Positions 10,387 to 64,000 of a stretch of DNA of 64,000 nucleotides are shown one piece after another. The stretch is from Bryum argenteum (lineage: Eukaryota; Streptophyta; Bryopsida; Bryales; Bryaceae), in assembly GCA_037043015.1 (NCBI GenBank), contig CM073328.1:12435495-12499494 (forward strand), in the 5' to 3' direction. Position numbers and translations under genes: made by a program. Position 1 is the first letter of the stretch. Each line of letters opens with the position of its first letter. Below the pieces are notes generated by a model. That model worked only from the letters and a program-made list of their open reading frames with translations. It did no database searches and was not told the origin of the DNA.

Positions 10387-11357
10387 CCCCCAAAATGGTT
10401 TGACTCTTTAGCAGCAAAAAGAACACATTGTCAGAAAACGTATTATGCATGGCAACAGAGATGAGTTATTTAGAATTCAACCATACAATTTTGTAATAGA
10501 CAGATTGCACATGATGCCCCTCAAAGTTCGAGTCATGAGGTCTTATAGATTGCGAGGTCATTATGTATTAGTACTAAAAAATGACCACAAATTTTTATCA
10601 TTTTCATCTTCAAGAGAAAATACTACCGACAGACTTATTGCAATGAAAAGTGACCAATTGGAAGTTCTTTATCTTCATCTCAATGACCTCCACGAACCAA
10701 TAAAAAGTTGTGAGAAAAATTTCTTTGCCCAAATATTGATCGTGCAGTGCTAAAAAATGCCCTAAATTTACAAAGGAAAAAATGTCAACAACTAGACCCC
10801 TGCTCAAAATTGTGTACTCTGTATTCTTTATATTTTGGATGAATTTAAGGTCCTTACCAAATAAACTAAATCAAGGCTTGAAATCAACTCAACAACCAAA
10901 GTTGAAATGCAACTATGAATAAAGGAGTTATAGCTCCCCAAAATCATCCATTTTGTTTCTTCTTTCAATGTAGAAACATTGTAGCAAATCCAATACTAGG
11001 ATGGATAATCTTACAATTAGAAAGTTATTAGAATTCACCTTACAATGATGATTATCCAAAAAAAAATAAAAATAAAATGTAAAACTACTTTTGATTTCAC
11101 ATAATTGGCATATAATGGTAAATTATTTCTCATGTTTGAAAATCCAAGAACAAGTGCTATCTTCACTAAAAAGCATGCAATCAATTTATACTTCACTTAG
11201 TGGGGCTGCAAGTTTTACCACACAAACTAGACTCAATTTGGGACACATCTCAATTTACTATTGTCCGTTACTGAGTCTCAATTAAGAAATCATGGCTCTC
11301 CCAAGTTTTTGATTTTCATCCAAAATGTCGTTTTTCAACTTTTGGCACGTTTAGGGG
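10387..11357. mobile_element. TTAA-group element, 971 bp (group A), in copy 1
   Basis: Flanked by TTAA at 10383-10386 and 11358-11361. The left end is CCCCCAAAATGG and the right end CACGTTTAGGGG, an imperfect inverted pair. Size and interior match 31540-32511 (972 bp), and the orthologous insertion in duplication copy 2 is 22293-23274. It therefore inserted before the segmental duplication. Short open frames inside are not conserved. Confidence 0.7.
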
Positions 11358-19380: not shown

Positions 19381-21981
19381 ATGGATCCGGAGGGTAGCTT
19401 CACTGCGGCCTGTTCCGGCTCAGAGTGGTACGAGGGCTTGGAAGAATCTGGAAGTTGTTTGAAACTTTACGACCTCCTCCACGACAAGCGTGAGTTGATT
19501 CACCAGCTGGGGCCACATGGCAATACTGTGCTCCACAAGGGAGTGGATCATGGATGTGTTAAGTTAGTGCGATTCGTCCTGGTCGACACGTTCGATGAAG
19601 CTGGTATTTGTTCCTGCAAAGGGGGGGAGGAGGAGTACGGTCAATGTACCTTAACGAGGGAGAAGTTGCTTCGGAAGAAAACTGATTATGGCAGCACGGC
19701 AGTGAACATGGCGATCGTGAGTGGGAGTCCGAAGATGGTTCTACTCTTGGAATGGGCGACTCGTGTGAGTAGCAAGGAAAAGAAAGTGGTGAACACAGTC
19801 AAAAGAACAAGGTATCCTACTGAAGTGTTGGAGATCTTCGGCTGTAATAATCACTCGGAATCGAAGGAGATCGAACCGGTGGTGAACGAAGTGCCCAATG
19901 TGAAAGATGACGAGATCAGTGAGAGCATCTATTCACGAGAGGAGGGGAGCAGTGAGAAAACATATGATCGTGACATGCAGCTTCAACTGTACGAAATCAT
20001 CACTGCACAACTGACTCAGTGGTCTGCTGGTGAAGATGGAGTGGTTTTGAACTTTTTGATGGACAGATGTGCAACGAATGTGTACTTCGAATTTGTACCT
20101 GTGGAACATATATTTCTGCACTTTCTTATATCATTTGGTAAAGAAATGATTGAGGAGGGACTTCCAGAGCAGGTGAAAGGAGGGATGTTAGATTTCCTGA
20201 TGAGGTTTCTCCGAGATATAATTGCGGAATGCAAAGTGTGGGACGAGAAGAATAAGAGAGCTGAGACAATGCAGATGACTCTTTTCAGCATTCTTGATCC
20301 CCGAGGCCGTACAATCATGCACACTCTCTTTCATGTGGCTCGCACCAGTCTTTCCTTTTCTTGTGCAAAGTGGGCTGAAACAGTCGCTGGAATTTTGGAA
20401 GGAGTTGCTTTAGAATCAGCAAGGCCCTGGCGATGTTATACTGCAAAGGATGGAGCAGGACGAACACTCTACCACATGGCCAGCATTTATGACTTTTTGT
20501 TTGACATGGAGTTTCATTGGGGCAGCTATGAGTTGAAGCGTGATCAGTATCCACATGTGAATATTGAGGTCACTCCTCTATGTTCTGACGAGTTCAAAGC
20601 CCTACAAAGGTGGAGCTTCGGAGATCGTTTCGTAAGAAGGATGAAGTACTTGTCTCAACAACCAATTGATTTGGCAGTAGTATTCGATACAACAAATTTT
20701 TTGAGCATCTTACTGCAAGGTCATGCGAAAGAGGGATTCAAAGGGAAGCAATTTTCATGGTCTTCACCTTTTCAAATGGCATGTGGTTTGGGAAGAACAA
20801 AATTGGTGGAACAATTCCTTAAGGTAATTTCAGCATTGAATGCTTATAACTTTTTGTTACGAATGCTTATGTAAGAAGAGAGTTCACATGGCAATTTGTA
20901 GATCTATGTATAGTATTTGTATAATGTACTGACTAATTGCAAGATTATCAAGTTATGGTGACATTGGACATGTTGGTTTTGTGAAATCTTGCAGCATCAA
21001 ATGCAATTCAAAAATATCAAGGACTCTGGTTTTGATGGCTCTGGAGATTACAAACCAGCATTACATTGTGCAGCTGTAATGGGGCAAGTTGAAGCAATAC
21101 AATTGATGTTAAAATATCCCATTTATGACCCCATGTGTCAGAAGGAGGGGATTGGAGATACTGCTTTGCACGTGGTTGTGGGAATGGTTGCACTGTTTAA
21201 AGTTGAGCAATCTAAATTATTTGCATTGCATCATGTGCTTCCAAACTCTCCCAAATTCAGATTTCCTAGTTGTCTTGAAGATGAGGCTCTCGAAAAGGTA
21301 CCAAGGGATTTTACAAAGAATGAAAAGATCTGCATCAATCTATTACTTCAGGCTGGAATTGACTTGTGGACTCCTAATATGCGGGGAGAATATCCAAATG
21401 TTGGATCCTGTGCAAGCAATGACGCTAGAAGTTGGTGGTACGATAAGGTGGTCAAAGAAGTTGAAATCAAGAAGGCAAGCATCACTAGTGCAGCCAATGC
21501 AACTTCTGTCATTGGTGCACTTGTAGCTACAACGTCATTCATAGGACCACTTCAACCTCCACTAAGTTATTCTCCGGATGGCTATGTTGATGCCAATCCG
21601 ATTTCAATCCGGATATACCTGGTGTGCAATAGCCTCTCATTTTTCTTCTCCATCGCAAGCATTTTGATGGTGGTTCTTCCGTCAATCTCAATGCCAAAGG
21701 AGTCCTTATATGATGAAATGATAAGAAGCGAGAGATCTTTGAAAGCTGCGGTAACAATGTTACTAATATCTATCATTTGTATATTGGTAAGTTTTTCATC
21801 AGCAAGTCTTGCAGTGGTATCTTCAGAGTGGCATGACAGAAAACTCATTGTTGCTAGCATGACAATTGGAGGAGGAGTTTGTGCGGTTGTGCTAGTGATA
21901 TTTATGATTAGATTGATACGAATGGTGTTCCACAAGAGTAGTTGGTTGAGGAGGAAGTTTGCAAAACACATGTACTTTTGA
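19381..21981 (+). CDS. Ankyrin-repeat protein with C-terminal PGG domain, intact copy
   Basis: Two exons: 19381-20823 (481 codons, donor AAG|GTAATT) and 20995-21981 (acceptor TTGCAG, 328 codons plus stop), giving about 809 residues. The ATG at 19381 follows an in-frame GTG and is the first ATG. Ankyrin-like helices occur near residues 47-77 (GNTVLHKGVDHGCVKLVRF), 110-135 (GSTAVNMAIVSG), 455-480 (SSPFQMACGLGRTKLVE) and 500-560 (KPALHCAAVMGQVEAIQLML, GDTALHVVVGM). From about residue 645 a PGG-type domain begins (ALVATTSFIGPLQPP), with four hydrophobic segments and a basic tail (SSWLRRKFAKHMYF). Plant ankyrin-PGG proteins such as the ACD6 family are membrane proteins linked to defence and stress; that role here is inference. 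The middle third (about 150-450) has weak or no ankyrin match, unusual for the family. Its neighbour copy at 7448 is broken. Confidence 0.85.
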
Positions 21982-22292: not shown

Positions 22293-23274
22293 CTCTAAGT
22301 GGTTTGACTCATTTGTAGCAAAAAGAACACATTCTCAAAAGAAACTGTCATAAATAGAAACAGAGGTGAGTTATTACAGATCCCAACCGTACAATTTTGT
22401 AGTAGGCAGATTGCTCATGATGCCCCTAAAAGTTTGAGTCTTGAGGCCTCAGAGATTGCAAGATCATAACGCATTATGACTCACAAATGATCACAAGATT
22501 TCATCATTTTCACCTTGAACAGAAAATGCTTCCAATAGATTTATTGCAATGAAAAAGTCACCAAGAGGAAAGTTGTTAACCTTTATCTCAGTAACCTCCA
22601 TGAACTACAAAAAACTTTCAGAAAAAATTCCTTTGCGCATATAATGGTCTTGCAATGGTGAATATTGCCCTATAGTTTACAAAGAAAAAATAGTTCAAAT
22701 CTAGACCCCTTGCACAAAATTGCATACCATGTATCCTTTATATATAGGATGAATTTAAGGTTTCTACCAAATAAACTAAACCAAAATTGGAATCCAACCC
22801 ATCAACCCATCAAGTTGAAATCCAACTGTGGATGGAAGAGTTATTGCTCTTTAGAATCATCCATTTTGTCTCTTTTTTTAGTGTAGAAACATCGTAGCAA
22901 ATCCAATACTAGAATGGATAATCTTTTAATTAGAAAGTTTTTAGAATCCACCTTACAATGATGATCATGCAAAAAAAAAAAAAATTTAAAAAATCATGTA
23001 AAACTACTTTTGATTTCACATAATTGACATATAATGGTAAAACATTCGCCATTTTTGAAAATCCAGTAACAAGAGCTACCTTCATTGAAAAGCATAACTT
23101 CAATTCATACTTCACTTAATGGGGCTACAAGTTTTACCACACAAACTAGACTCAATTTGGAACACAACTCAAGTAATTTTGTCAATTACCGAGTCTCGAG
23201 AAGAAATCATGGCTCTCCAGAGTTTCTCGTTTTAATCCAAAATGACGTTGTTCAACATTTGGTAGATGTAGGGG
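22293..23274. mobile_element. TTAA-group A element in copy 2, ~982 bp
   Basis: Flanked by TTAA at 22289-22292 and 23275-23278; the right end is ATGTAGGGG. It is orthologous to 10387-11357 by position relative to the duplicated gene, so it was duplicated along with the gene. The left end has decayed to CTCTAAGTGG. Confidence 0.65.
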
Positions 23275-31532: not shown

Positions 31533-32864
31533 CCCTTAACCCCTAAACGTCCTTGGGGTATTTTTAGCCAAAAACTCATTTTCAAAAAAAGTGATATAGA
31601 TGAAAATAAAGATAAGCTATTCAGATCTGAACCGTACAAACTTGTAGTAGACTTGTAGTAGATCATGTAGACCAAAACTTGACTCATGGGACCTCATAGA
31701 TTGCGAGATCATAACATATTAGTGCGCAAAACAGGATACAAAATATCATCATTTCCACTTTGAAGTGAAAATACTACCAACATGAAATTTGCAATCAAAA
31801 AATCAGCAACTAGAAAGTTGTTCATCTTCATCTCAAAGTCACTCTTGTACCAAAAAAATTCATCAAAACAAAATCTTGGCTCAAATAGTAGCCTTGTAGT
31901 TGTGAAAACTGCCAAAAATTTTACAAAGGAAAAATAGTCCAAAACTAGACCCCTCGCACTCAAATTCATGCCTTTTCTTCAATATATCCTCGATTGGGTC
32001 AAGATATCTACCACTAAAAATAGACTATAATTGGAATCCATCCCAAAAATAAAAAGTCAAAATCTAACGGTGGATAAAGGAGATCTAGCTCTTCAAAAAT
32101 CATCCATTTTTTCACTTTTTCATCGTAAAAACATCATTGCAAAGCCAATACCAAAGTTATTTAGATCAAAAAACTTCCAACTACAAAGTTGTTGGGATGC
32201 ATCTAAATATCAAAACTATGAAAAAAAAATCATGAAAAACTATTTTAGATTTCACATAATTGGCATGCAATGGTAAAACATGCCAAATGTTTGAAATCCC
32301 AAAAACAAAAGCTGCCTTCACCAAAATCCATGCCATTTATTCATACTTTATTTTATGAATCTGAAATTTCTACCACATAAACTAGACTTGATTTGTGACC
32401 TAACCCAAGTGATTTCGTCAAAAACGGAGTTTGGATGAAGAAGTTATGGCTCTTCAAAGTTTCTGCCCTTCATCCAAAATGTCGTTTTTCGACACTAGGG
32501 ACGTTTAGGGGTTAAACGCCCAAGCAAGCCCGAAGGACTTCTTTCCAACAGCTCTCTAGCTTTCACTGTACTCAACTATTCACTTGTATTTTGATGTCAA
32601 GCAAGTCACCTTCTTATGATACATTCAAAATGTAGAGTTTTACGATTCCAATCACAATTTGTATGAGTGGTTTTGTGCTTTGAAAGGATTGTGGTAGGTA
32701 GGTTGGGGTTATACATAACCTTCTCGGAGGTTGCAAGCTCATCATTGATTGGTTCATTCATGATGCCCAAGTTCAAGAAGTGCACTATTCATGACGCCCA
32801 AGCCCAAAAGATGTTGTGATCCAATTTTGGACTGCCCTATTGAGACCCCATGGGCGTTTAAAGG
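31533..32864. mobile_element. TTAA-group B element (~356 bp net), split by a group A element
   Basis: TTAA flanks lie at 31529-31532 and 32865-32868. The left end is CCC-TTAA-ACGCCC once the 972-bp insert at 31540-32511 is removed; the right end is GGGCGTTTAAAGG. The joined element aligns along its length with 34077-34438, including GTAGGTAGGTTGGG and CATCATTGATTGGTTC. Non-coding. Confidence 0.8.
31540..32511. mobile_element. TTAA-group A element, 972 bp, with perfect 13-bp TIR
   Basis: The left end CCCCTAAACGTCC and right end GGACGTTTAGGGG are exact inverses. TTAA lies immediately outside at 31536-31539 and 32512-32515, inside the host group B element. A small hairpin, TGTCG-TTTTT-CGACA, lies just inside the right end. 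The interior has no coding frame. It is the best-preserved member of its group here and likely one of the youngest. Confidence 0.88.
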
Positions 32865-42060: not shown

Positions 42061-44465
42061 CACATCCAGCTGACAAGTGGAACATGAAAAGAAACGGCCC
42101 GGCGGGGGTCGGGCATGGTCGGCAGGGCAACGTGTTGCCTACGGCGTCGGGCTGGTCTGCCTGTCCATCCTCTCGGGGCAGCATTCAAGCTCCAGTCCGC
42201 CCTTTCGAGAGAGATGATGTTCCCCACTCTGTTCCCCAACTCATACCCGGATGCTATCCGGTCATACCCGGTTTCTATTTTGAAGGGATATGAGAATCTG
42301 GATTGAAGTCCGGCCATGTGGGGGCTTCTTATTTGTTGATGTACGTATGATGTGCGTCGGGTCCGACACCTGAATTGGATATTTGTGACAGTTCCCGACC
42401 AGTTAAGTGATGACACGTGGATGCGGACCCTCCCCGTGAGATCCAAGCTAATTTATTGAGTTGGGAAATTACATGTAGTGCACATGGAAACTTAAGTAGG
42501 AGCACCTATAACCAACCACTTAAAGAATTTTGGAATGGATTTTCCAGATATCAAGAGAAGAGAAAGTAAAAAGCTAATAGAAAATTTACTATACCAATTG
42601 TATTGAATTTACTGTATTATAATCTTTGATTAAAAACTTGGTTAATATAGAGGGTTGTTGACAAGTTTTAATCACTTTATTAAATTTAGTAAGAACCCAT
42701 GTACAAGTTTGCACTATTTATGTGTGCATTCTCAATTCTTTAAATGTCTACTCTGGTTTGTGAAATTAGGATTCTCCACACTAATTAGTTGACATTTGCA
42801 CTGAATAGACATCAACTATTAAGATAACTTTTATGTACAAATATAATAAAAAACATTGTAGAAAATGAAAGTTGGTCTACAAAATTTCTTTTCATGGATA
42901 GATATATCAATAAATAGTGTTGGGTGTGCGTAATGGTGAGTTTGGTAAACATTTCCTCAAGAAGGCAACCTAGTTATAGTTTTTGGTGTAAATAGTCAAA
43001 TATCACCTAATTTTTATTGTAATGTAAAAACTCAATCACATTTAAAGACTTTCGGTCGAAAAGAGTTTAAAGTGATTACGTTTATTGTGCCACATCCCTT
43101 GGTTGTGTGCTTTGTGTACACTTTCTACAATCATCTTTGGAATAAGACACCAACTTGTGTGAATTGAAATCATTTGCCTATTGCAAAGTTTTGATGACCA
43201 CTTCTCATTTGCCCTTCTACTTACAAAGCTCGTTAATGGCCCTCACCTTTGCTTGAAGTGCCAAATTTGTATAATGACATTCCCTGCATTGAGAGGTTAC
43301 ATAATTTCTGCAAAGTCACAAAACTTCATTCAAATTTTATTGAAATTTTGGCTTTACATATTTGAAAATTCAATTTGTATTTTTTGGGAGTCGTGGACTT
43401 TGGAAGTCTAAAAACGGTGACTTTAAATATTAGAAAGTTATGAAGATGCAATATTTACGATTTAAGGCCATGTGGTTCATATGATTGATTAATCACGTCA
43501 AATAGAATGCACTTCACAACTTGACACACGTATTTATTGAGAATTATGGGGGAAAAAATATTGAAAACCAAACCAAAACGCGTAAGGATACATTTATCCA
43601 TGAACCAAATGTGGATAGTGTGATTGATTAATCAAATATAACCAAATGCTAAATTGTAATTGATTGCATGCTATCAATTGATTGAACATTTCTAACCAAA
43701 CAAAATCTTTAATATAGAAGCCTTATACGTTCCGTGTGTAAAGGCCACTTACGTATGATTTAAAAAAATAAATCCATTGCTCTCTTTCTCCCTTACGAAC
43801 TCTTGCTCTCCATTGTGTATTTACACTTTGCGACTTACAAGGATAACATTTTTTCTCCAAATCTATCAACTCCATTGACAATCAGTCAACTCGATTGACA
43901 ATTAGACAACTTGATTTTGTCTTTATGTGAAATATGGCAAGTATTATAGCCATCGGCTCTCAAATGCGGTCATTACATGACTCTATTACATGATGTTTCA
44001 AACAAAGACTTTGTTTAGTTCCGTAAGCAAGATCCTCTCTATAATATTAATGTTTGCTACCAATTACTCAAAATGTCTGAGATGAGTTGTTGAAAGTGCT
44101 CCAATCGCACATGGAGATGCAATGCACGTTGCAATCATTTTCAATGAAACCGTGGACCATGGCGCTTGAACAAACCAAGTTCAGCTCGTGCTCACTCTCC
44201 AAGCTCTCGAAGTAGTTTGCTCCAAACCTTTCAACAACTCCATTGCCGCCAAACATCTCGCTCCTCGTGTTGTGAATGGAGCATTCAACAACAATAACGA
44301 TTTTTGAGGAAGGAAGAACCACAAGAAAGCTTGAAGACAAGTGTCTTTGTTGGGCATTTGAAAATTATGCTTGCAGTGCCCTTGTTGTTCAAAAATCAAC
44401 TTTTGTAATTCACCACGAAAATAGAACAACAATGATTAAATTTCAATGTGTGCCCATGCGGGAGT
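42061..44465. other. Intergenic, no gene recognised
   Basis: A GC-rich patch at 42080-42300 contains repeated CATACCCGG phrases. The remainder is AT-rich with no frame, hairpin or repeat I can support. Confidence 0.45.
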
Positions 44466-45030
44466 TTAACCCTTAAGCGGGCCGAATGTCGATTTTCGAC
44501 ATTCTGGATGACACCGGGGATGTTTGAAGTCTTCCCGTCTTCTCATCCTCGCGATTTTTCACCCGTCATTTTTTGTAACCGGCTGGTAAATGGGTTTAGT
44601 TTACTATGAGCTTTACCCCCGTATTATATGGGGTTTACACATTTTCCAAGCGTGATTTCAGTGGAAGTCATTCTTTGCATGGAGTATATTTCTTCAATTT
44701 CTGTGTGAAATTTTGCCATTTGGGCATTGGAATGGGGCAGTTGGGCATTGGGTGCATTTTGCAAAAGAAAATAAGTTGGAAAGACGGATTACATAAGTAA
44801 GTCATTATTTGGAAAGAAGTGGGGGTGATTAGTGAGTTATGAGGACTGTCATGGTAGTTGAGCTGCCGTTTTTGACTGCATCTCCAACCAAAAGGGTCCA
44901 GCCCTTGGGCTTTGCTTACCAATGGCAATTTTCAAATGCAAACATGTTCCAAACAAGTATTGATGAAGCAAATTTTGGGATATAAAACCATCCCATCATC
45001 AATGCCCTATTGACCAAATGTAACACAATC

Positions 45031-45240
45031 TCACATTCAAATTTGAAACACCCAAAATCTTACCTAGAAAATCACAATCCTAAAACAATCCATGATTGCA
45101 AGTTGTTTGAAATTCAAAAATGTAGCATATTTGAACATGCACCATGTCACATTCAAATTTCAAAGCCACAAAATCACACCTACAAAATCACTCCTAAAAC
45201 ACCCATCAATGCCAAAGATTTGAAATTTGAATTTCAAAGT
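45031..45240. repeat. Degenerate ~115-bp tandem repeat, two units
   Basis: TCACATTCAAATTT followed by an (A/C)CACAAAATC-like phrase and CCTAAAACA occurs twice, starting near 45031 and 45147. It lies in the probable 5' non-coding part of the piggyBac-like element. Confidence 0.5.
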
Positions 45241-45315
45241 AAATAGAGTTGTCAACAAATCTGCCCCACTTGCCATTGATTTGCTCAATTCCTACCTTTC
45301 TCTATCACCCATAAA

Positions 45316-45712
45316 ATGGCAACACAAATGGAGACCTTGCTTTGCGCTGCAAAAGAGGAGTTAGTGACGTGGGGAAGAGAAGAGAAGGGTTTAGGAGAAC
45401 AACAACTTGTCTTTTTGTTAGAATTGTTGAATAGGGATGTGCTTTTGAGTTTGCCATGCTCTTCCAAGGTGGAGAAGTGTGACACACCCCAAGGCATACG
45501 CCATTTGTTTTATCACCATGTAAGCAACATTTTGGGGTGGAAGGAGAGAGTGCCTGAGGGAGACAAGAGAGGAATTAGTCCATTGTTATATGGTTTAGTT
45601 AGGCAAATTTGGCCTAATGAGCAAAATGCCAACAACCAAGAGCAAATCAGCAGCTCTATCAAAGGAGATGGAGGGGGCTCTACATGTGCAAGAAGAAGTC
45701 AACAGTTACCAG
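45316..45712 (+). CDS. Possible first exon of the piggyBac-like transposase gene
   Basis: An ATG frame encodes 132 residues (MATQMETLLCAAKEELV...), helical and charged, and ends at a strong donor, CCAG|GTAAGC. An acceptor at 46114-46115 (CAAAG|TGATT) would join it in the same frame as the transposase upstream region starting at 46116. The protein is unrecognised. The ATG has a favourable AAAATGGC context. It could instead be a separate accessory gene or an element-captured fragment. Confidence 0.4.
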
Positions 45713-46115
45713 GTAAGCTCCTACTCACCTCCTCTTTGCACACATCTAGATTTTCACATTTTGAGTCCTCTTCACATACTAATTTACTAATTTATTGCAT
45801 GGCCATGAGGTTTCATACTACTTCATAACTTGTAGAGGAGAAGATAACTTACATTTGGAGAACAGTTGGTCCCTTCATCAAATCAATCCATGTCACATTG
45901 CTTCCATAACTTGGCAAAAATGCTCCCTTGTCATGCATGTTGCCTCTGGTATCAATCAAGCATAGGAGGTTATAATGAAGAATAGTAAATTGAACTCAAC
46001 AACCTAAATCTAGCAATTCAATCAACTAAGTTGAAAACTAAGCTTGTAATTGAAAACTAAGCTTGTGATTGAAAACTAAGCTTGTGATTGTAAGCTTTTT
46101 ATTACCTGATCAAAG

Positions 46116-46738
46116 TGATTCGGTGGGGGCTCCAGGAAATCCAGGGACTCCTGGTCCGGCCAAACGGAAGCGCCTCCGTTGCAAGCCTCTCCATCGGCGG
46201 AGGCAACAGAGGTCACGATCAAGCAGCAACAAAGGTAGCCAAGGTTGCACCGCTGGGGAGGTTGGAGAGCATACTGGAGATGCCAAGGGAGAGACTCAAT
46301 ATCACGAAGATCATGATGGCAACACTCGCCGACAGGGGAGGAGCTCAACTTGTGTTACGGACGACAAGCCAAAGTCAGGAATCACAAGGCGGGAGGCGGA
46401 TGGTAGTACGACCGCCGTGGAGGCCTGTAGGGCGCCGCAACACAGACAGCTTGATCGGGACGGAGATCACTAGGCCCGAGCGACATCAGACCAGCGGAGT
46501 CGGGGCAGCCGGGACCTCACCATCCGGTGTAGCGGCGTCGAAGGGGCTGGGCCACACGCCGGGGACCTCCAGATCGGGCGCAGCCGCCTTGGGTATGCCG
46601 ATGGCGACGGGGTCTTCAAAGTCGGGGACCTCAAGATCGAGCACGAGGGATCTGTCGACGGCCGCAGTGCCTGCCAGGGAAGCGGGACCGGCTGCTTCAA
46701 CAAGAAGTCAGCGCAGCCAAGGGACAAAGACACATTAA
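46116..46738 (+). pseudogene. N-terminal extension in frame with the transposase, closed by TAA
   Basis: A frame of about 207 codons, rich in Gly, Ser, Arg and Thr, is open from about 46115 to a TAA at 46736-46738. The same frame then continues open into the transposase at 46793-49456. Its composition resembles the disordered GC-rich block at 47320-47700 inside the transposase. So it may be the natural N-terminus broken by a single stop, or non-coding leader. No domain is recognised. Confidence 0.4.
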
Positions 46739-46840
46739 CAACCAGCAGAGTCCACTGCGTCCAAGAGCCGGAAGGGACTATCAACCTCGAAGTTGCCTAT
46801 AACACACATCAAGCACCCGAGAAGGAGAAGCACAGAAGTC

Positions 46841-49456
46841 ATGAAAATCATAAGTCCGCTAGTCCATGAGAACTTACCTTCGAGACTTGCTCCAAGAAAG
46901 AGAAACCGTGTAGATCTAGGTCGCGGCATACGAAGATCAGGGCTCGGATCTGGCAAGGATCCGAATTTGCCACGTCAAATTGTTGACCCTGTAGAAGTTA
47001 GAGTACTCTTGAGAAGTCTGGATCGAGATTCTAATGTCATAGAAGAAGATGATGATAGTGTGGAGCAGTGGGTGAGAGGAACAGCCATCAGGAGCTTTGT
47101 GTGTCCTGTGTCATCTAGATTAATCTATGTGGTTGAAATTGACGATGAAACTAGGGAAATTCCTTTTGGTGAGATTGCAAGCATTTATGCTCATTATCAC
47201 GTGCAGGAAGGTGAAGAAGAAGAGAGTTTTGAAGAACCTGGAGATAAAGCCGTTGGTAATGAGAGTGAGTTTGAGGACACCGATTCAGAAGATGAACTCG
47301 ATCTTCTGCTCACCATGGACGATCTTGGCAACGGGCAATTGCAACAACACGGTCACGACGGCGTCCACTTGCAAGAATGCACGGGCGGGGCTACACCCCA
47401 GACGGTGAGTGCGGACGGCGATCACGGTGAGCAGAGTCCGCAGCACTTCAGCGGAGGGGGCATCGTGGGAGCCAACCCCAACGGCACCTTATCGAGATCC
47501 AGTGGAGGAGATCCGCGCATGGCGGATCCAGCCAACTCAGCAGAGGGCGCGCCTTCCGTGGCAGCGTCACTTGACTCACGCGCCGGGCTCCAAGGCGGGC
47601 CCCATGCAGGCCGTGTGGAGCCACAAGTCTCCGAAGCCAGGAGCCAGCAGAGCCCAGTGGGGACTGAGCCCGTTGGTAATGGTGGGCTAAGGGTCCCCTT
47701 AGAGAGCCCCCAGTGCAGCATGGGTGTTTCTGAAAGGGAGGGGGCATGTTCTTTGGATACTTCCGAGCGTATTTCTGAGCCCCAACCCCTGCGTACAATG
47801 GTAAGTGAGCCCTCTAATGGGGAAGGGGCAAAGGAAAGGAGGTTCCAATTGGGCCAAGAGATTGGAACAATGGGCCAACGTTCAAGGAGTGTTCCAAGGA
47901 TGAATATTGGGGCCAATTTGTATCAAAGTATACCCATGATGATGTTGTGTTCACGGGTCCTAGTGAGGGTCCGCCATATGTTTTTAGGAAAATTTCCCCC
48001 CTTATTAGACTTGTTTCACAAATTCTTCACAAAGAAGACTTTGAGGAAAATAATTAGAGAGAGCAACCGTTACGCCTCCTCTATTGATCCGGCTACCAGT
48101 TTCACTAGAGGGCCCAAAGAATGGTGGAGTTTATCGGTCCCGGAGTTGGAGGCGTGGTTGGGAGTTTGCATACTAATGGGGTTGAAAATAGAGCCTAACC
48201 GTAGGTGCTATTGGAAGAGGAGTGTGCCTTTTTACTATTGCCATACGATTGCTAACACCATGAGCATGAAGAGATATGAGGGTATATCAAAATGTTTACA
48301 TATCCATGATGACTCTATGGCCCCTACGGATAAAAACGATCCTACTTATGACAAGTTAGTGAAGTTGAAGTGGCTCATAGAGGAGGTGAGACTTCAATGC
48401 CTTGCAAATTGGAATCTTGGCCAATTTGTAACCGTTGATGAGCTCATGGTTAGGTACAAAGGAATGTATGGTCATGGCATGAAGCAGTATATGCCAAACA
48501 AGCCGGTCAAATTTGGATTCAAGATTTGGGCGGCGGCGGATTCAAAGTCCAAGTACCTTTACAACTTCCAAGTCTACACGGGGGCCGATTTGAAGAAAAA
48601 TCTACACACGGCGAAACCGGGAGAGGCGAAAACGGGTTACGAAGTTGTGATGGGGTTGATGGACGGATTGCACGGGTGGGGCCATGTGGTCGTCACCGAC
48701 AACTTCTTCACATCCCCAAAGCTTTTTGTAGATTTACACGACTTGGGGACATATGCCACCGGCACCGTGCGTGCCAACCGAATCGGCTTGCCAAGCGACT
48801 TGGTGGACAAGCGACAGTGGGCGAAACAACCCCAAGGGAGCTCCGATTGGCGCATGCATTGCACCGGTACGTTATGCTCTCTTGTTTGGGTGGACAAAAA
48901 ACCGGTGTTGTTGTTATCAACCCATGCCCCGCCTTTGTCACCGGATCCCGATGTACATCTTACAGTGCCTCGATATTCCCGGGGGAGGACGGAACACATA
49001 CCCACCTATCCGATACATTTGGAGTATACTCGTATGATGCGAGGCGTGGATGTGAGTGACCAACTTAGAGGAGTTTACACGGCGATATCCAAAACCCATA
49101 AGTGGTGGCACCGTATATTTATGTTTTTGGTAGACCTAGCGATTACAAACTCATGGATAATTCATAAACGGGAGAGCTTGGAGTTGGGAAAGCCTCCCAT
49201 GGATCATTTGGAGTTTGTGACGGCGTTGGCATTCTCACTCATGGAGCGTTGGAGACAAAACTGTATGGGTGTGGTTTCTCTATGTTCATACACCCGGGGC
49301 ACTCATGGGCTTGAGAAGGTTCAAGGCGGTAGACACCAATGTGCACATTGCAAAGACCCAAAAAAACTAACCAATCTTGTGTGCAAAGATTGTGGCGGCC
49401 TATGGTACCATATGGGTGATTGTTTCACCAAATGTCACTTCACCGTAAGGAGATGA
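46841..49456 (+). CDS. piggyBac-type transposase (DDE_Tnp_1_7) with cysteine-rich tail
   Basis: A single open frame of 871 residues from the first ATG (46841); the frame is open back to the TAA at 46736. Residues ~1-355 are disordered, with an acidic patch (EDTDSEDELDLLL) and a GC-rich Gly/Ser/Pro stretch. The transposase core spans about 375-785. Its DDD triad is D533 in VTVDELMVRYKG, D620 in VVVTDNFFTS, and D737 or D740 in MMRGVDVSDQLRGVY, with the conserved KTHKWWHRIF following. The last ~45 residues form a zinc-binding cysteine-rich domain (CAHC, CKDCGGLWYH, C..C), which in piggyBac proteins recognises the terminal repeat. All catalytic acidic residues are present, and no frameshift or stop interrupts the core. 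The protein is long (piggyBac is ~594 aa) because of the N-terminal extension. piggyBac elements excise precisely and target TTAA; the neighbouring TTAA elements fit as non-autonomous partners. Confidence 0.9.
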   Translation: MKIISPLVHENLPSRLAPRKRNRVDLGRGIRRSGLGSGKDPNLPRQIVDPVEVRVLLRSLDRDSNVIEEDDDSVEQWVRGTAIRSFVCPVSSRLIYVVEIDDETREIPFGEIASIYAHYHVQEGEEEESFEEPGDKAVGNESEFEDTDSEDELDLLLTMDDLGNGQLQQHGHDGVHLQECTGGATPQTVSADGDHGEQSPQHFSGGGIVGANPNGTLSRSSGGDPRMADPANSAEGAPSVAASLDSRAGLQGGPHAGRVEPQVSEARSQQSPVGTEPVGNGGLRVPLESPQCSMGVSEREGACSLDTSERISEPQPLRTMVSEPSNGEGAKERRFQLGQEIGTMGQRSRSVPRMNIGANLYQSIPMMMLCSRVLVRVRHMFLGKFPPLLDLFHKFFTKKTLRKIIRESNRYASSIDPATSFTRGPKEWWSLSVPELEAWLGVCILMGLKIEPNRRCYWKRSVPFYYCHTIANTMSMKRYEGISKCLHIHDDSMAPTDKNDPTYDKLVKLKWLIEEVRLQCLANWNLGQFVTVDELMVRYKGMYGHGMKQYMPNKPVKFGFKIWAAADSKSKYLYNFQVYTGADLKKNLHTAKPGEAKTGYEVVMGLMDGLHGWGHVVVTDNFFTSPKLFVDLHDLGTYATGTVRANRIGLPSDLVDKRQWAKQPQGSSDWRMHCTGTLCSLVWVDKKPVLLLSTHAPPLSPDPDVHLTVPRYSRGRTEHIPTYPIHLEYTRMMRGVDVSDQLRGVYTAISKTHKWWHRIFMFLVDLAITNSWIIHKRESLELGKPPMDHLEFVTALAFSLMERWRQNCMGVVSLCSYTRGTHGLEKVQGGRHQCAHCKDPKKLTNLVCKDCGGLWYHMGDCFTKCHFTVRR

Positions 49457-50884
49457 ATATGTAAGTTTGTCTTCCCAACAATCTTTGTGTTAGTTTATTT
49501 CTAATTTATTTTATCCTATTTGTGTTAGTGTTTGTATGAACTACAGTGAGCACTCCAAAGACTACTGAATTGAATTTGGAGTCACTCCAGTGATTTTTGG
49601 TCCTTTGCAGTCACTCCAGGGACTAACTTAGTGGCTCACATTTTGAGCACAGGGACTCTTGGTCGATGGAGTACAGCTCCAATTTTTTGGAGTCACATTT
49701 TTTGCATCAAAGGGAGGTTCACAAGGGACGAGGGCTGTAGAGGATAAGGGGCGACATCCGGCCTCAATCATGCGGCGAGCAAGGCAGCGGCTCCACCTCA
49801 AGGGAGGGCAGGGGCATTGAACCAGGGGGGGTGGGGCCTCCACATCGGGCCCTTTACAGATGCCGAGCCTTCAGGGCATCGGCCGGCCCATGCGGGGCTT
49901 CAGGCGCCTCTGCCCAATTCGGCGGGGGGGGGGTTCAACCTCTTACGGCTGACAATATACGGGGGTGCAATTATGACTGCCCCCTGGTGTCATGCAGCAG
50001 TTTTTGGAGGCTAGTGCACACTGTAATCATTTTTAGCATGGCACGATGGATTCTCCATCCTATTTTGGTATTTTTTTAATGTACTTTTCCCTTGTGTCAG
50101 GCACCCAACGGTTTGTAAGAGTCATCTTTTTGTTGTTTTCTTTACAAAGGTCTGCCCGCCTTACACTTGGTTATGTCCATGGAGGACAAGAGCGTGGGTG
50201 GGCAGACTTGGAATAGTATTGGGCAAAAATGGTTTTCTCAAGGTACTTGTGTTGCAAGGCAGATTGTGTGAGAATGGAAGGGGTTATGTTTGTTTTTTTT
50301 TTTTTTTTCAGAAATACCTTCCTAAGTTCATGCCACACCTTTTTCTAGTTTACCAATTTTGCTTGTGAGGCCATTTTCAATATGACTTTTCAATGCAATG
50401 TCCAAGATTGGCCACTGCCCCTCCATTTTGAGCAGTCACTTTCTTCCTTGAATCATGTGGATCAAGCCTCACTCCAATTTCAAATGGCCTAAAATTTTGT
50501 ACACGTACTCTTTGGACAAAGGAGATCAAGATCCTATGGTTGGATTTCAAATTTACTGCCCCACCTCTTATCAAATGAGTTTGACATTTTATGTACTTTC
50601 GGACCCCTTTCCATCTGCCCCAATGGAACGAAACGTTTAGGGGTTAAGATGACTTTGTTGAATAAAATCCAATTTGCTTAAAAAAACTATCTTACTTATC
50701 GGCAAGAGGGATGAGTTACCTTATATTGTATAACGAATGTAAGGGTCACAAAAGCCCTTCTTTGCATTTAATTTTTGAAATGGTATAAATTATCATCCCC
50801 AAAGCATTTTTGGGGAGGGGTAAAGAGTACATCCTATTTGTTAATATATGGACCTTAAAATTTATGTAGCATTGCAAAAACTAT
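49457..50884. other. 3' region of the piggyBac-like element, non-coding
   Basis: Recurring GGAGTCACTCCAG phrases lie at 49550-49640, a GC-rich block at 49800-49950, and a poly-T run near 50298. At 50370-50643 the sequence resembles the right half of group C elements and ends TTTAGGGG-TTAA, a possible transposon end. No further gene is seen. Confidence 0.45.
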
Positions 50885-51170
50885 GTAATGTGTGTAGCGT
50901 ATCAATGTCTTTAAATGCCTTTAAATGTGTGTAGCATGTCAAAAGCATTCAAACATGTGTTACGTGTTAAAAGACTTAGAAAGCGTTAAGCGTGTGAAGA
51001 GCCTTGTAATATGTATAGCGTGTTTAAAGACTTGATAGACACGTAGTGTGTCAAGATACCTGAAACGCTTGTGACGTGTCCGGAGACTAAAAACGTGTGT
51101 AGCATGTTTAGAGAGTTAACACGTGTTTAGTGTGTGGAGGACTTCAAAAATTCGTGTAGTGCTATACAAA
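50885..51170. repeat. Degenerate ~30-bp minisatellite, about nine units
   Basis: Units built on GTGTAGC(A/G)TGT followed by an A-rich AAAAGACTT-like spacer recur with heavy substitution. Minisatellites are frequent in subterminal regions of DNA transposons. Confidence 0.6.
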
Positions 51171-51695
51171 AATGTCTAAGTTGCAGGTAAAAATCATAAA
51201 AAGGTGCTCTACTTTGTAACGTAGCTTCATATCAAGTTGTTGCACTTTTACATATTAAATCAACACTTACAATGCAAGAGTTAAAAGTCTTGGCATAAAA
51301 TTGCCACTTATTTATTTGTCAATCGATACATCGCTTGTATAATAATGATTCAAATGGAAGCATTGGCATTTAACAATATTTTACTCTATATGTTGGTAAC
51401 GTTGGAGTTGAAAAAATTTGTATTTAATTTTGTTTTTTAAAATAGGGCACGTAAGGAAGACTCCACACAAAGTCGTCACTTTCTAAGCTTGGAGGGCAAC
51501 ATCCATGGCAATCAACAATTCGAACTCCTCTTCTCTAAGTTTGACTTTGAGATTAAAAGCACGCGTAAAAAGACAATGCAAAATATGGGAGGGGTGCTAA
51601 ATTTCAATGTAGAATTAAATATTATTGACCTCTTTTGCAACTTAAATCTCGAGGAATAGAAGCTAAATATACCATTAGCCTCTTTTTATAACGTG

Positions 51696-51805
51696 ACTCT
51701 TTGATCCTTGAGGTAAAATGTGAAATAGAAAATTGATTATGAAGCTTGATACTCTTTGATCCTTGAGATAGAATGTGAAATAGAAAATTGATTATGAAGC
51801 TTGAT
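51696..51805. repeat. 55-bp direct tandem duplication
   Basis: Two copies starting ACTCTTTGATCCTTGAG differ at only two or so positions, so the duplication is recent. Non-coding. Confidence 0.85.
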
Positions 51806-52366
51806 AGGATGATGATGATATGTGTAGATAGATAGAAACTCTGGTCCTTTCTAAGGGGCCAGCGTGAATGAAGTGTTCGTTCGTAATGCTAATATCCCGA
51901 TGGCCACCGGTCAAGGAGAAATTGGAAATGATATGTGCATGTTGATAAGATGGCATGCTAATATTTCATGCTCTTCGTGTCAAGTGTTTCATAAAATAAT
52001 AATAATAAATATAATCGATTAGATAATTGCAGTCTCACTAGAAACTAAAATTTTAAGTTACCTCACCACCTTCCTCTCAAGCAAAAGTTCATGTTACTTA
52101 CACAACACAATTGGAAAATATTTAATTTGTCTCCATAGCATGAAATTCCTCATAACACTCAGCAGTGATTGACCATGTGTCTCCCACAACTCTCATGACC
52201 CCATTATCAAACTCACATTCTTCCAATATTCTTGCCAAGTTCAAACAAAGATCTATCTTCCACCTTGAACGTTGATTAGGAAACTCAATAAGAAACCACT
52301 CCTAACCAAAGAATACAAAAGAGTAAAAATCTATTGGTCACTCAAGACTGCACCCAAGTAACCTAA

Positions 52367-52973
52367 CCCCTAAATGGTTTGACTCATTTGTAGTAAAATG
52401 AACACATCCTCAAAAGCATTGTCATAGGTGGAGGTAAAAGTGTGTTATCCAAATCTCAACCGTACAATCTTGTCGTAGACATATTGAACATCATGTGGGT
52501 CAAATTTTGAGTCATGAGGCTTCATAGATTGCGAGATCATAATGTATTAATACTCAAAAATGATCACATAATTTCATCATTTTCACTTTAAAGTGAAAAT
52601 GCTACCATTAGACTTATTGCAATGAAAAAGTCACCAATTAGAATGTTGTTCACCTTCATCTCAGTAGCATCCTTGAACAAAAAAAAACCATGAGAAAAAT
52701 TTCTTTGTGCAAATTATGGCCTTGCAATGGTGAAAACTGCCCTAAATTTTACAAAGGAAAAAATGTCTAAAACTAGGCTGCTGTCACTGAAATGCATGCC
52801 ATTAATTCATACTTCATTGTATGGGTCTGAGATTTTTATGACATGAACTAGACTTGATTTGGGACCCAACCCAAGTGATTTCGTCCAAAACGGAGTCCGG
52901 ATGAAGAAGTTATGGCTCTCCAAAGTTTCTGTCATCCAAAATGTCGATTTTCGACATTCGGCCCGCTTAAGGG
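52367..52973. mobile_element. Group A-like element, 607 bp, flanked by CTAA
   Basis: The left end CCCCTAAATGGTTTGACTC matches the group A element at 10387. The right part matches the right part of 31540-32511 but ends CCCGCTTAAGGG. CTAA occurs at 52363-52366 and 52974-52977. It is therefore either an internally deleted group A element at a CTAA target, or the right end of the 8.5-kb element from which group A right ends derive. Confidence 0.6.
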
Positions 52974-53243
52974 CTAAGATACAATTTTGGAAAATTATTA
53001 TAAATTTGCAATTGAAAATGTACTTTGTACGTGAAACAAGAAGTAAGAGTAGTCAGTAGTAGATGGTCTATGAATTACTTTAAACTTTTTTAATATTGTT
53101 ACAAAAAAAGAATTAATCATTTTACCCTTGTATTGTAGTACACTTGAATGTGATTCCAATACAGTTTAGGATTCTCTCAAATCTAAGCATTTTTTAGTTC
53201 ACAATGATTTATTAAACTTATGAAAATAAATCATTGTGACTGG

Positions 53244-53460
53244 GCAATGGTTCGTGGCAGCTACCAAGGAGGCACCCTAGAATTCGTGGAGACCCTCCCC
53301 CCAAGGCCATTTTTGATGAATTTGAATTCAAAAATGGGGTTTGCGGCCCCAAATTACCCTTGGAGCATACTCCTTGGCAATTTGAACCAATACATTAAAA
53401 AATAGGGAGCTCCTTTATCCCTCCCTCATCCTCCTTGGTAGTTGCCACGAACGCTTAGCA
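53244..53460. mobile_element. Mutator-like MITE, 217 bp, with 11-bp target duplication
   Basis: The direct repeat ATTGTGACTGG lies exactly at both edges (53233-53243 and 53461-53471). Inside it, inverted ends share GTTCGTGGCA and CTACCAAGGAGG with one mismatch between. A 9-11 bp target duplication is typical of Mutator-like elements. Non-coding. Confidence 0.8.
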
Positions 53461-53479
53461 ATTGTGACTGGAAATTTGC

Positions 53480-55700
53480 TAACTGGTGGTACCCGACTGT
53501 ACTGTAAGGTTGAGTGTCCTATAAGCACCAACTTAAGAGATCTGACCTATTTTTAGCACTAGTAAACTCAAAATAAATTATGACCACATTCGAAATAGGT
53601 TTTCAGGAGGATTGCAAAAATTTGCAACATGTAATTCGCATTTGTGAATTTTATTCAAAATTCCAAAATGCTAAGTAAGGTTCGACCCATAAGCGTTATA
53701 TACAAATGAGGTACATCTGTATTTGCACAATCTACAAATGAGATACAACGCCATTTTAGGTCCCCTGGCGCTTTTAGGTAGTCCAACCGTATATTGTGAC
53801 CCAAAAGAGATTTGGAGGATTTGATAAGTTAGAGCTACAGTTGATACTGTACTTGTCCACTTGCCCGACACAAGGAAGGGCATGCACTCATTCATTCATT
53901 GTCCTTCGCTAGAGTTGAAGAACAACTCTTCAGAATCCTGGCTGGAGTGAAGTTTGGAATAAACAAAGGAAGCCACACTCTTTTCTCACACATGATTATT
54001 GTGGTCTGTGGGACACATGGACTGGCAGGAGCATAGAAATTGCTGTTGAAGAAGAGAAACTCCAACCTATTTAGAGGTCGGCGTGAATAAAGTGTTCGTT
54101 CAACCTATACTTGGATGTATGCCCCGAGGCCATCACACCAATGGCAGGACTACTAACCCCTCTCGGGGTGAAGGCTATGCTAGTTCCTTACGTGGGCACT
54201 AGTGCCTTAAAGATACCCGACATGGTATACCCCCAAACGGTTTCAAGGAACCCATACAACGAGGTCCAAGAACCCCCCACCATAATTGGGTGGACCATGG
54301 TGGTGAGCACCACGCTAGCATGGGGAGTAAAACCCACAAACTCCTCATTGGGGGCCATAAGCCCTTACCACCAAGTCAAGGCTTGTGGTGTCTAAATTGT
54401 TGTTGATATATTGTTCCCAGTAATGAGCCATTTCTGATCTCTCGTAACTGGAATAGGAAAAAAAGCAACGTGAATCTCCGCTCCATAATAAGGTAACCAA
54501 AAATGGCACAATTTTTAGCACGGCAAAGCTATAGGGCTATTACGAATGCTAGCACTTTCGTGGGGAAAATTAAATTGAAGCTAAAGCAAGTGAAATCATT
54601 ATTTTTGGACTTTTCTGCAGTGACTTGTGAATTTTTGAAGTTGGAGATATAGGAGTGCCTAAAATGATGCCCTAAAGTGACATGCTATATTGTTTGCAGC
54701 AATTACATGGTTTTGTTGTATAGAGAAGCTATTATGTACATGTGAGTGAAGATTACTAGGGTTCCATTTTTGGCATTGTGTCATTGTATACCGTTCTACT
54801 ATGTCTCTCAAAAAACAATTTGTTATAGAAAAGAATATAGAAAAATCCTCTAAAATGGAGCAAGCTCAATAATGGAGCTCTTCTAATTTTCACTCACTCG
54901 GAGGTACATAGTAGCTTTCCAATCCGACAAGACCATGTATTGAGAGCAAATATTTCAAGGTGCCATTTTAGGAATATCTATAAGTCCACTTTCAAAAAAT
55001 CATAACAAATTGTCAAGAGGTCTGAAACTAATGATTCCACTTGCTCTATCTCCTCACTTACTTTCCCAATGAACAAAAATTGCTTCGGCTGTTAACTTTG
55101 CTATAGGTCTTCCATGTTGAAAATTGAGCAATTATTGAGGAGTTTATATTGTGTTTGGATTTAAGTTTTCATAATTGGTGAGGTCAACAATTGAAGGTAT
55201 AACTATGGTTCTTTTATGTTTTAGCATGTCTTTAATTCAAGAAGGTGAGTAGCCTCAAAATTCACCAAGAAGTAAGAGTTTTTTTTTTTTTTTTAAAATA
55301 ATTTCCGATTTTTTAAACATGTAGAAAAGTAGTAAGCATGAATTATCCGTTTGGAATTTTAATCCATTAATTTTGTACATGCCTTTTTAATTTTTGAAAA
55401 TGAGGCTTTGTATTTAAAATTCAGCATGCCTCCATGTGAACAATCAAGCAATTCTATAGGTTTTATAGGTGAAAAAATTGGTTTACACACGTGGGAGTGC
55501 ATAGCGATAGAAAGGTCTCAAGTTCCCAAAAACACAAGGAAATTTAGGGGTTTAAAATCATTAGTTTGAACTGTAAAGCTCCCAAAAACACAAGGAAATT
55601 TTAACTTTAACATGATTATAATATGTTTCTCAAATGGCATATTGAGCTCAAAATGTGAGTGAATTGACCACGAGACGGTACCGATGTCTGCTCAGAGTAG
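53480..55700. other. Intergenic, no gene recognised
   Basis: A 94-codon plus-strand frame at 54111-54395 has no domain. The phrase GTGAATAAAGTGTTCGTTC near 54085 echoes one near 51866, marking a small dispersed repeat. The rest is AT-rich. Confidence 0.4.
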
Positions 55701-59175: not shown

Positions 59176-59434
59176 TTGAAAGCTCAAAAAATGTGGATTG
59201 ATGGAAGATGAAAGGGAAGTACTTATAAACTTATATGGTAAAAGTAGATTCTACATTACCCTTGGTAGATATAGGGTATACAGTATAGTACACACATATA
59301 AGTATTTTGTAGTATTTATAGTAGAATATGCACGGTATACCTCCATATGTATGGTTTTTAAATACGTATACTTTCTAGTATATTTATATACTAAATATTA
59401 TCCTACAAATACACATATGTATACGTATACGTAT
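59176..59434. other. A/T-rich spacer between ORF1-like gene and satellite
   Basis: Probable 3' untranslated region with many short TATAC phrases that grade into the hexamer array. No gene. Confidence 0.4.
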
Positions 59435-60740
<1,306 letters not shown>

Positions 60741-60759
60741 CACAATCATAAATACAAAT

Positions 60760-61035
60760 ATTTTAGTACTTGAACTTCATGGGAACCCCAAGCTCATACT
60801 ATGGCTACTAAAGAATCTCAAGTTTATACTTGGGCTACTTGGGGATAACACATTAAACAAAACAACAAGAACACAAATCTACACATTACACCAAAAACAA
60901 ACCTATCTCCCCCACAAACCAAACGGAGCTCGGCCTCCCGGCCTCGCCAAAAAATTAATACACCAAAACACACCCCATCTCATAAATAATACAACAAAAA
61001 CCAACCCAACAAAACAAGATAAATACACCAAACAA
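60760..61035 (+). promoter_or_regulatory. Probable 5' untranslated region of the LINE
   Basis: From about 60850 the top strand becomes A/C-rich and G-poor like the coding part downstream, which suggests it belongs to the same element. A GC patch, GGAGCTCGGCCTCCCGGCC, lies near 60927. The exact left end is not visible. Confidence 0.4.
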
Positions 61036-62945
61036 ATGGAAAATCCCAAGATACACAAAACATATTGGTCCCCCTCTCAAACACATACAACCTATACCCA
61101 AACACAATCAAAACCTGAAAATCCTAAAATGCCCAATCCTAAAACAAACACCATATCACATCTTGCCAGACCAAAATCCAAAACTCCCAAAGGCAAATTC
61201 ATCCCAAACTATTTATTCCTCCTACTCTGCGGAGACGTCGAACCAAACCCATGCCCCATGCCAAATATTCTACACACCCACCCCGCCAAACACAGACGAC
61301 ACAACAACACATACTTCATTCCGAGGACAATCATATTATATCCAGAATACAAACCCCTCGCAAAAATATTCTCCTCCACAATCCAAACCACACACCCCGA
61401 CCACCCAACAAGTATAAACAAATACCCATGTCTAACACGTTACATACATAACCACCCCCAATACCCACCGCCAAATTTTCTATACGCACTAATTACCACC
61501 ATTGGTCCTCTATTAACAATGTGTGAACAACATATATTATCAAACCCAACTCTTGAATGGACTACATCATTACTTAACAAACTTTCCCGTTTACCAAATA
61601 TCCCCTCCCGTCACTTAAATAATCCTCACCCCTACACTAAATTTTTAGAAACACACCAACACAATATTACACCCTCTCGCACGATACACAATGAATTATA
61701 TAATTATATCACAAACATAAACAACAATGCAAACCTACAAACATTAATGGTTGAATTTCCATACATACCAAAAGAACTACTAATCGAAGCCTTAAAATGT
61801 AAAACACACATTCCTGAGTACTCACACCCACCACGACTTCCGCCCACTCCCCCTCTTCAAACCCAATCCCAAATTACTACATACCAAAGCACACTTATGA
61901 CTACCTGGAATGCAGCTTCACTCAATACTGCACTTCCCAACATCCACCAGCTCCCGGATAACCTTCCCGCCATCATTACCATACAAGAAACAAAACTCAC
62001 TGCAAATAAATCCACAAAACACATACAACGTATGCTTCCACAATATAAACTCATCTTCAACAACACACACGCCCTCACTAGATGTATACAACAAAGATTA
62101 AGATACACACCCACTAGAGGCGGCCTTCTCACCCTAATACACTACAAATATGCTTCCCCATGCAATGTCACCAAGATCCCAACACCAGCAAACATCTCAC
62201 CATATTTACAAATCATACATATTGTGAACAAACCACTCATACCATGGATTCTTATCCATCTCTACATGCCGTCCCATCCCGAAGATATAAGACTAATCCC
62301 CTCCATTCAGCAAACAATCACTACCCAAATACAAACACATCCAAATCACACCCATATTCTTTGTGGCGATTTTAACAGAGACATCGCACTCATAGGGAGA
62401 CAAAACGAACATACCACAACACCACCACAAGACGAAGACATTCAATGGCGCACCTTCACCGATAGTCTCAATCTAAAGTACATTCTTACAAACAGCCCAT
62501 TCTCCAAACAAGGCGGATACAACTATACAGAATCGAGTCTTATTGACGGTTACTACATAAACTCCACCAATCACCATCTTTTCACCTCCACTACCAACCA
62601 CACACAAAACCTTAACTCAGACCACTCGCCAGTAAATCTTCACATACCTCAACAAACACTAATAGCCCGCCCTCCACCAATATCAATTAAAACAACCCCT
62701 CGTATTCTAAACCCCATCCCCCAAGCCAACTTAGACTCATTTAATACTGCATTCTCTGAACAAAACGCATTGTCTATTAACAACCTTACCACTATTTTAA
62801 AACAAGAACAACTCACTAGCACTGAATGGACCACTGCATGTACACAATTAGACCTCCTCATAAACTGCACCACAGAAACATTGCTAAAAACTTGTACCGC
62901 CCCCCCTATCCTCACTCTCACACCACAAACTAACCATCAGGGTGG
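61036..62945 (+). CDS. LINE ORF2, N-terminal part: 2A-like motif and AP endonuclease
   Basis: The frame from the ATG at 61036 encodes a basic, Pro/Thr/Asn-rich N-terminus, then a 2A-like motif YLFLLLCGDVEPNPCP (residues 59-74), then an apurinic-type endonuclease from about residue 295. Endonuclease motifs in order are TWNAASL, IQETKL, RGGLLTLIH, WILIHLYMPS, ILCGDFNRD, SLIDGYYIN and LNSDHSPVNLHI, covering the catalytic N, E, D-N and SDH residues. The enzyme nicks target DNA to prime reverse transcription. Active 2A peptides end NPG-P; here the glycine is cysteine (TGC at 61252-61254), so ribosome skipping should fail. The frame stays open to 63099, but homology moves to another register near 62900-62945, so a frameshift lies there. 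The top strand is strongly A/C-rich. Confidence 0.85.
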
Positions 62946-64000
62946 ATTTCTGGAAGAGACACCTCTCTACATACCACTTAATTCGCAAAACAATCTACAT
63001 AGCCAACAACAACGACACTTGGAGAACACACCCAATAATACAAGAAACACAACAACACACACATGCAAGCATACCACCCCCCCCCCCGGACACAGATGAC
63101 ACAAAAAACGATTGGCTAAACACACTAGCAGATTTAGCCAAAACCGCAAACAAAAAAGCAAGGGCCATAACCACGAAATACACCCGCCAATCCATCAAGA
63201 AGGCCATAACAAAATATAGACAACTTTATAACACTAGCTCCAAGAAAATAAACAACCGTGTCTTCAAAAACCTAGAAACCCCACCACTAGACTGCATCAC
63301 TACTCACAACAATGAAATCCTGACTAGCCCAGAAGACATAGCCCAAGAAATCTTCTTGCAGCAGTCCATCACCAACCGCCCAACCATCCCAACATGCTAT
63401 TATCAACCAGAACATCCCCAAAACTGCACATGTGCAGTCCGCCAATACCCGTCGCATGATTTAGATGGATTTATTCTTGAAAAGAGAGGTACCCCAGAAA
63501 CTCCGCTACACACATACTACAATCGGGAAACTTTTGACATCTGCTTAAAAAATCTCTCGCAAAACAAAGCTCCTGGCCTAGATAAAATCCCTAACTCCAT
63601 TCTTAAAAATATGCCTGACTCATTCCACACCCTTCTACACCTCTTCTTCTTCCACTGCTATAAACAAAAACAAATACCTGCATCTTGGAAAAGCAGTCTT
63701 ACTATACTTCTTTAAAAGAAATGTGACCCCTCACTTCTCCCCAACCATAGACCCATTGCCCTCGCAAATACAATATACAAACTCTTTACTAGTACCCTTA
63801 CGTTTATTCTATCAGCATACGGCAAATGCCACCAAATTCTTCATGACAGCCAAGAAGGCTTTCGAGCTGAAAGAAGTACCTCTAGGCAAATCCAACTCCT
63901 TACGGCCACACTTGAAGATGCCAGAATCACAAACCAAGATATTTACATAATGTACATCGACTTCAAAAATGCATTTGGATCCTTAGACCATGCTAGACTA
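62942..64000 (+). pseudogene. LINE ORF2, reverse transcriptase part, broken and cut by window end
   Basis: A register shifted relative to the endonuclease continues the polyprotein (VDFWKRHLSTYHLIRK...). Reverse transcriptase begins about 63520 with LSQNKAPGLDKIPNSILK and SWKSSLTILL, is interrupted by a TAA at 63713-63715, and resumes in the same frame with LLPNHRPIALANTIYK, SQEGFRAERSTSRQIQ and IYIMYIDFKNAFGSLDHARL up to the window end. The last motif contains the first catalytic aspartate. With one frameshift and one stop, this copy cannot make a full ORF2. The rest lies beyond the window. Confidence 0.85.

Follow-up and report, generated by a model that had tools for sequence, protein, structure and literature searches.

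We analysed a window of 64,000 nucleotides (the whole stretch of DNA), in which two independent piggyBac-type insertions most probably lie 1.7 kb apart: a decayed transposon of 6.2 kb at 44470–50643 and a separate MITE of 607 bp at 52367–52973. We assign this reading a probability of about 0.85. The features of the locus, with the evidence for each, are as follows.

44466–44469, no strand: TTAA target-site duplication on the left flank of the large element (sequence; all seven other long copies also have TTAA there)
44470–50643, plus strand: piggyBac-like element of 6174 bp (ends common to all ten fetched relatives)
44470–44512, plus strand: left end CCCTTAAGCGGGCC, with subterminal palindrome GAATGTCGA..TCGACATTC (sequence; the outer end of the MITE agrees with it at 39 of 43 positions)
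45316–45712, plus strand: putative conserved coding exon ahead of the transposase frame, 132 codons plus one base, before a GTAAG donor at 45713 (open in all eight long copies; dN/dS; aligned donor)
46736–46738, plus strand: TAA in frame with the transposase, ahead of the ATG at 46841 (CAA in L029 and L030)
46841–47362, plus strand: N-terminal region of the transposase frame (dN/dS 0.29–0.35 in four pairs)
47823–48001, plus strand: segment that the window copy reads outside the family frame, bounded by two compensating 1-base indels (all seven other long copies keep it in frame with the core)
48008–49456, plus strand: catalytic core and tail; the triad aspartates are encoded at 48437, 48698 and 49049 (Pfam; 6x67/9c0f alignment; dN/dS 0.09–0.10 in four pairs)
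49340–49438, plus strand: Cys/His-rich C-terminal tail (sequence pattern; a second, weak domain match, to the piggyBat tail)
50622–50643, plus strand: right end of the large element, ..CGAAACGTTTAGGGG (same end in L029–L038)
50644–50647, no strand: TTAA target-site duplication on the right flank of the large element (sequence)
52363–52366, no strand: CTAA target-site duplication of the MITE (sequence)
52367–52973, minus strand: MITE of 607 bp, facing the other way from the large element (present at all 20 fetched loci, counting that of the window)
52974–52977, no strand: CTAA target-site duplication of the MITE (sequence)

The window contains ankyrin/PGG-type genes, which we take to be associated with plants, and CCCTAAA repeats near position 1925; the surroundings thus have the plant-like look that the original prediction had described. 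Two similar ankyrin/PGG-type gene regions, at 7439–10054 and 19372–21981, likely represent a duplication. The endonuclease domain of a LINE-like retroelement was found at 60700–63099, adjoining a long tract of short-unit repeats at approximately 59380–60745. The fetched relatives of the large element lay on seven contigs (C2, C3, C4, C6, C7, C8 and C10, with the window on C8) of the 258.8 Mb genome of 25 contigs, which makes a stray contaminant contig unlikely.

In the original prediction, positions 44470–52973 were taken as a single 8.5 kb piggyBac element with 43 bp inverted ends, TTAA on the left, CTAA on the right and a coding-complete transposase inside. The inverted match is real, 44466–44513 and 52930–52977 being 90% complementary over 48 nt, and the transposase frame is open, but the matching ends do not bracket one element. 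A wide query covering 44000–53500 was used to separate the two units; matches from the first base of a left-end query beginning at 44470 are no proof of a boundary. With the wide query, all ten relatives of the left end (L029–L038, seven long copies and three short derivatives) started at 44461–44466 and stopped at 50647–50650; that is, homologous copies end at 50643, which had itself been named beforehand as evidence against the larger element. The 19 other MITE loci matched the window only from 52353–52364 to 52977–52980, the supposed right end being part of a 607 bp unit present there without the rest. Furthermore, each of the two units carries its own matching target-site duplication, and the pairing of TTAA with CTAA joins the ends of two different insertions. 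These observations leave the single 8.5 kb element with virtually no probability, and illustrate how neighbouring insertions can pass for one element with an imperfect target site.

The seven other long copies of the large element measured 5886–6386 bp, and TTAA flanked both sides of all eight long copies, that of the window included. The number of independent long insertions is seven, not eight, since L032 and L033 share flanking DNA. These two copies lie approximately 36 kb apart on G000:C2, and their identical-looking flanks suggest that one of them arose by duplication of a chromosomal segment, not by transposition. The short derivatives L036–L038 are 941 bp long, with ends as in the large element. 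The termini of the large element, CCCTTAA.. and, on the opposite strand, CCCCTAAA.., are alike only over the outer bases; they begin with CCC and are related in inverted orientation, as in the piggyBac superfamily. Uninterrupted related sites were detected for L035 (window positions 32240–32439, 80.5% over 200 bp), for L029 (74% over 174 bp) and, weakly, for L031 (69% over 110 bp); none was found among the sequences compared for the other five of the eight long copies, including that of the window. Of 422 left-end candidates, 40 were scored, and three of these, with the window included, were 99–100% alike.

The eight long copies fell into three subfamilies: the window copy with L029 and L030, which differ by 1.6–1.8%; L031–L034, which differ by 2.2–3.3%; and L035, at 33.5–34.1% from the remaining long copies. 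The first two subfamilies are 23–24% apart.

The MITE was 607 bp long in 17 of the 20 loci (window included) and 608 bp in three. Its flanks were TTAA/TTAA at 18 loci and CTAA/CTAA at two, the window copy and L017; the latter pattern suggests insertion into CTAA, since the same mutation would otherwise be needed on both sides. Mean identity over the 20 copies was 99.5% (range 98.7–100%), a value biased upward by the choice of best-scoring copies. When 40 of 3318 candidates were scored, all 40, that of the window included, matched the 201 bp MITE end with about one difference at most, giving at least 40 near-identical MITE right ends. No frame of 120 aa or more was present inside the 607 bp element, which is thus short and non-coding, occurs in many copies and carries its own target-site duplication, as expected of a MITE. 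Uninterrupted related sequence across the insertion point, at 70–90% identity, was found for seven of the 20 MITE loci (L012, L015, L016, L017, L018, L019 and L022), and the insertions of L016 and L019 lie in older relatives of the MITE itself; no related empty site for the window MITE was found among the sequences compared. The close identity of the sampled MITEs and of the nearest long copies indicates that the family moved recently, in agreement with the recent activity originally proposed.

Other MITE-related sequences were also observed. Older relatives, approximately 74–78% alike and some with TTAA-type ends, lie in the window at 10388–11357, 22295–23262 and 31560–32511. At G000:C2:30742802-30743794, two MITE right ends face outward approximately 993 bp apart, too close for two complete 607 bp copies, and this spacing suggests a fused or double-ended element.

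The transposase frame of the large element extends from stop to stop over 46739–49456 (905 aa), with an ATG at 46841. It matched the Pfam family DDE_Tnp_1_7 (PF13843, E 3.6e-72) and the solved transposases of piggyBac (6x67, E 5.2e-26) and piggyBat (9c0f, E 4.9e-21); a third structure match, to a collagenase at E 0.93, was discarded as noise. Residues 268, 346 and 447 of 6x67, its catalytic residues, aligned with the aspartate codons at 48437, 48698 and 49049. The piggyBac-like identity proposed for the frame at 46841–49456 was confirmed by these matches, and the frame does lack a stop. The N-terminal region (46841–47362) matched no Pfam family at E≤10. The large element has the TTAA duplication, DDD core and, by sequence pattern, cysteine-rich C-terminal domain of the piggyBac superfamily, and we judge it to be a new family of this known superfamily.

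Between subfamilies, dN/dS was determined for four chosen pairs of the 28 possible. The core gave 0.09–0.10 in the coding frame and 1.82–3.72 in the other frames, and the N-terminal region gave 0.29–0.35 versus 0.83–1.74. Controls outside the coding sequence gave 0.82–1.26 upstream and 0.47–1.18 downstream; because one frame of the downstream control (50100–50600) fell to 0.47, little weight can be placed on a single ratio near 0.5. No clear selection was detected by dN/dS in the stretches 47363–47661 and 47662–47820. The middle of the element, at approximately 46145–46895, is fast-evolving (dN/dS 0.49–0.67), and all three of its frames aligned to L031 and L034 when L031, L034 and L035 were displayed. 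The ratio of approximately 0.1 in the core indicates that the transposase was, as judged from sequence comparison, under purifying selection between subfamilies. Such strong selection on the core would also suit a piggyBac-derived host gene, retained for a cellular function and no longer a transposon, but the gene sits inside intact ends and target-site duplications, and its dispersed copies are each broken differently, so that we give domestication hardly any credence and regard the large element as a transposon.

Upstream of the transposase frame, the putative exon at 45316–45711 gave a dN/dS of 0.15–0.18 in the four pairs, compared with 1.14–1.94 in the other frames. A GTAAG or GTGAG donor is aligned at its end in all eight long copies, and the exon is probably spliced to the transposase. 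It matched no Pfam family at E≤10, and its best match among solved structures (E 0.73) was not meaningful. Of all parts of the large element, this conserved exon is the most unusual.

The window copy had been described as coding-complete and as possibly live. Although its frame is open, the absence of a stop is misleading: approximately 58 codons immediately before the core (47823–48001) lie in a frame that the seven other long copies do not use there. A base is missing near 47822 and an extra base is present in the C run at 47996–48001, and the segment between them gave a dN/dS of 0.08–0.21 in the family frame versus 1.21–2.75 in the frame of the window. Compensating frameshifts can give a broken frame an open look. 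In addition, the two closest copies have CAA in place of the TAA at 46736, which would be harmless if translation starts at 46841 but disruptive if the frame joins exon 1. The other seven long copies are also disturbed: L029 carries an insertion of approximately 0.8 kb, L030 a stop, and L031–L035 stops or frameshifts. The insertion in L029, the copy on C7, spans its positions 4596–5371 within the transposase, and among the sequences compared it had only a 138 bp match elsewhere (L013, 77%). An undisturbed family-like frame was therefore present in none of the eight long copies sampled.

Both indels of the window copy adjoin homopolymer runs and could be assembly errors. In that case the window copy might be a live source, with translation starting at the ATG at 46841 and a working transposase being made; the indels do compensate each other and fall at or next to runs of G and C, the core is undisturbed with its triad present, and the close copies differ by so little (1.6–1.8%). 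Several observations argue against such a source: in the alignment L031–L034 lack a counterpart of the ATG at 46841, a neighbouring base also differs at the second indel, core dN/dS within the close group (window, L029 and L030) was 0.8–2.2, from few changes, and every other long copy is disturbed. We therefore consider a live source at this locus improbable. Unless the indels are assembly errors, the window copy lacks the uninterrupted family-like transposase frame of an autonomous element, and normal transposase is probably no longer produced from it; it is probably a decayed copy, not a coding-complete one, of a family that was nevertheless recently mobile.

The cut-and-paste chemistry of piggyBac is known from the enzymes studied. 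The anatomy of the locus fits standard piggyBac transposition, with end binding, excision, and insertion at a duplicated 4 bp TTAA or, rarely, CTAA. The sequence at 44470–50643 would descend from an autonomous element, the ancestral gene of which would have encoded a DDD transposase, with the upstream exon probably joined to it by splicing. This transposase would have bound the element ends, excised the element and placed it in a TTAA site that was duplicated in the process, and the window copy would have decayed since its insertion. One end of the MITE is alike to that of the large element at 39 of 43 positions, with the subterminal palindrome, and its second end is weakly alike, mainly in the outer 8 bases (76% over 25 nt). 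From these ends we infer that the short non-coding element at 52367–52973 may have been moved in trans into CTAA by the transposase of 44470–50643 or a sister of it; given the weak likeness of the second end, the actual mobilizer may be another family.

The large element resembles the piggyBac of Trichoplusia ni (PDB 6x67/6x68) and piggyBat (9c0f) in its DDD triad, Cys/His-rich tail, TTAA target and ends starting with CCC. It differs from both in its much longer frame, with approximately 380 residues before the aligned domain, in its conserved upstream exon and in its low similarity outside the core. A search of viral_contigs with two short peptide patterns gave six pattern matches and no confirmed viral relative.

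The presence of piggyBac in plants is not in itself new. In the portions of the literature consulted, the use of TTAA by piggyBac and the function of insect piggyBac in rice are cited (PMC5505980), 1230 piggyBac fragments are given for the fern Ceratopteris (PMC6890710), piggyBac is listed among angiosperm MITE superfamilies (PMC10004981) and tabulated with the superfamilies 'found in all taxonomic groups studied' (PMC4438587), and a haptophyte alga is reported to carry piggyBac families (PMC5963040). In open-access PMC, as judged by titles and the starts of abstracts, no paper devoted to a piggyBac family of bryophytes was found, which is weak evidence of absence; PMC10619864 contains just the term 'piggybacking'. 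The plant piggyBac annotations in the parts consulted (PMC6890710, PMC10004981 and PMC4438587) share the superfamily name as counts or lists, whereas the present account brings together the ends, the target sites, the transposase and a related MITE.

We tentatively raise the possibility, which we hold to be less probable than not, that a piggyBac lineage is still mobile in a land plant. Its transposase would include an additional conserved exon joined by splicing, a source elsewhere in the genome would mobilize the MITEs in trans (at least 40 near-identical copies, possibly far more), and target choice would have loosened from TTAA to admit CTAA. The piggyBac of animals is in wide use as a vehicle for gene delivery, and the literature consulted mentions plant members only in counts or lists. 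With exactly placed ends, three subfamilies that have diverged and a young MITE, a recently mobile family in a plant-like genome would make it possible to look for a transposase native to plants and to test the conserved extra exon.
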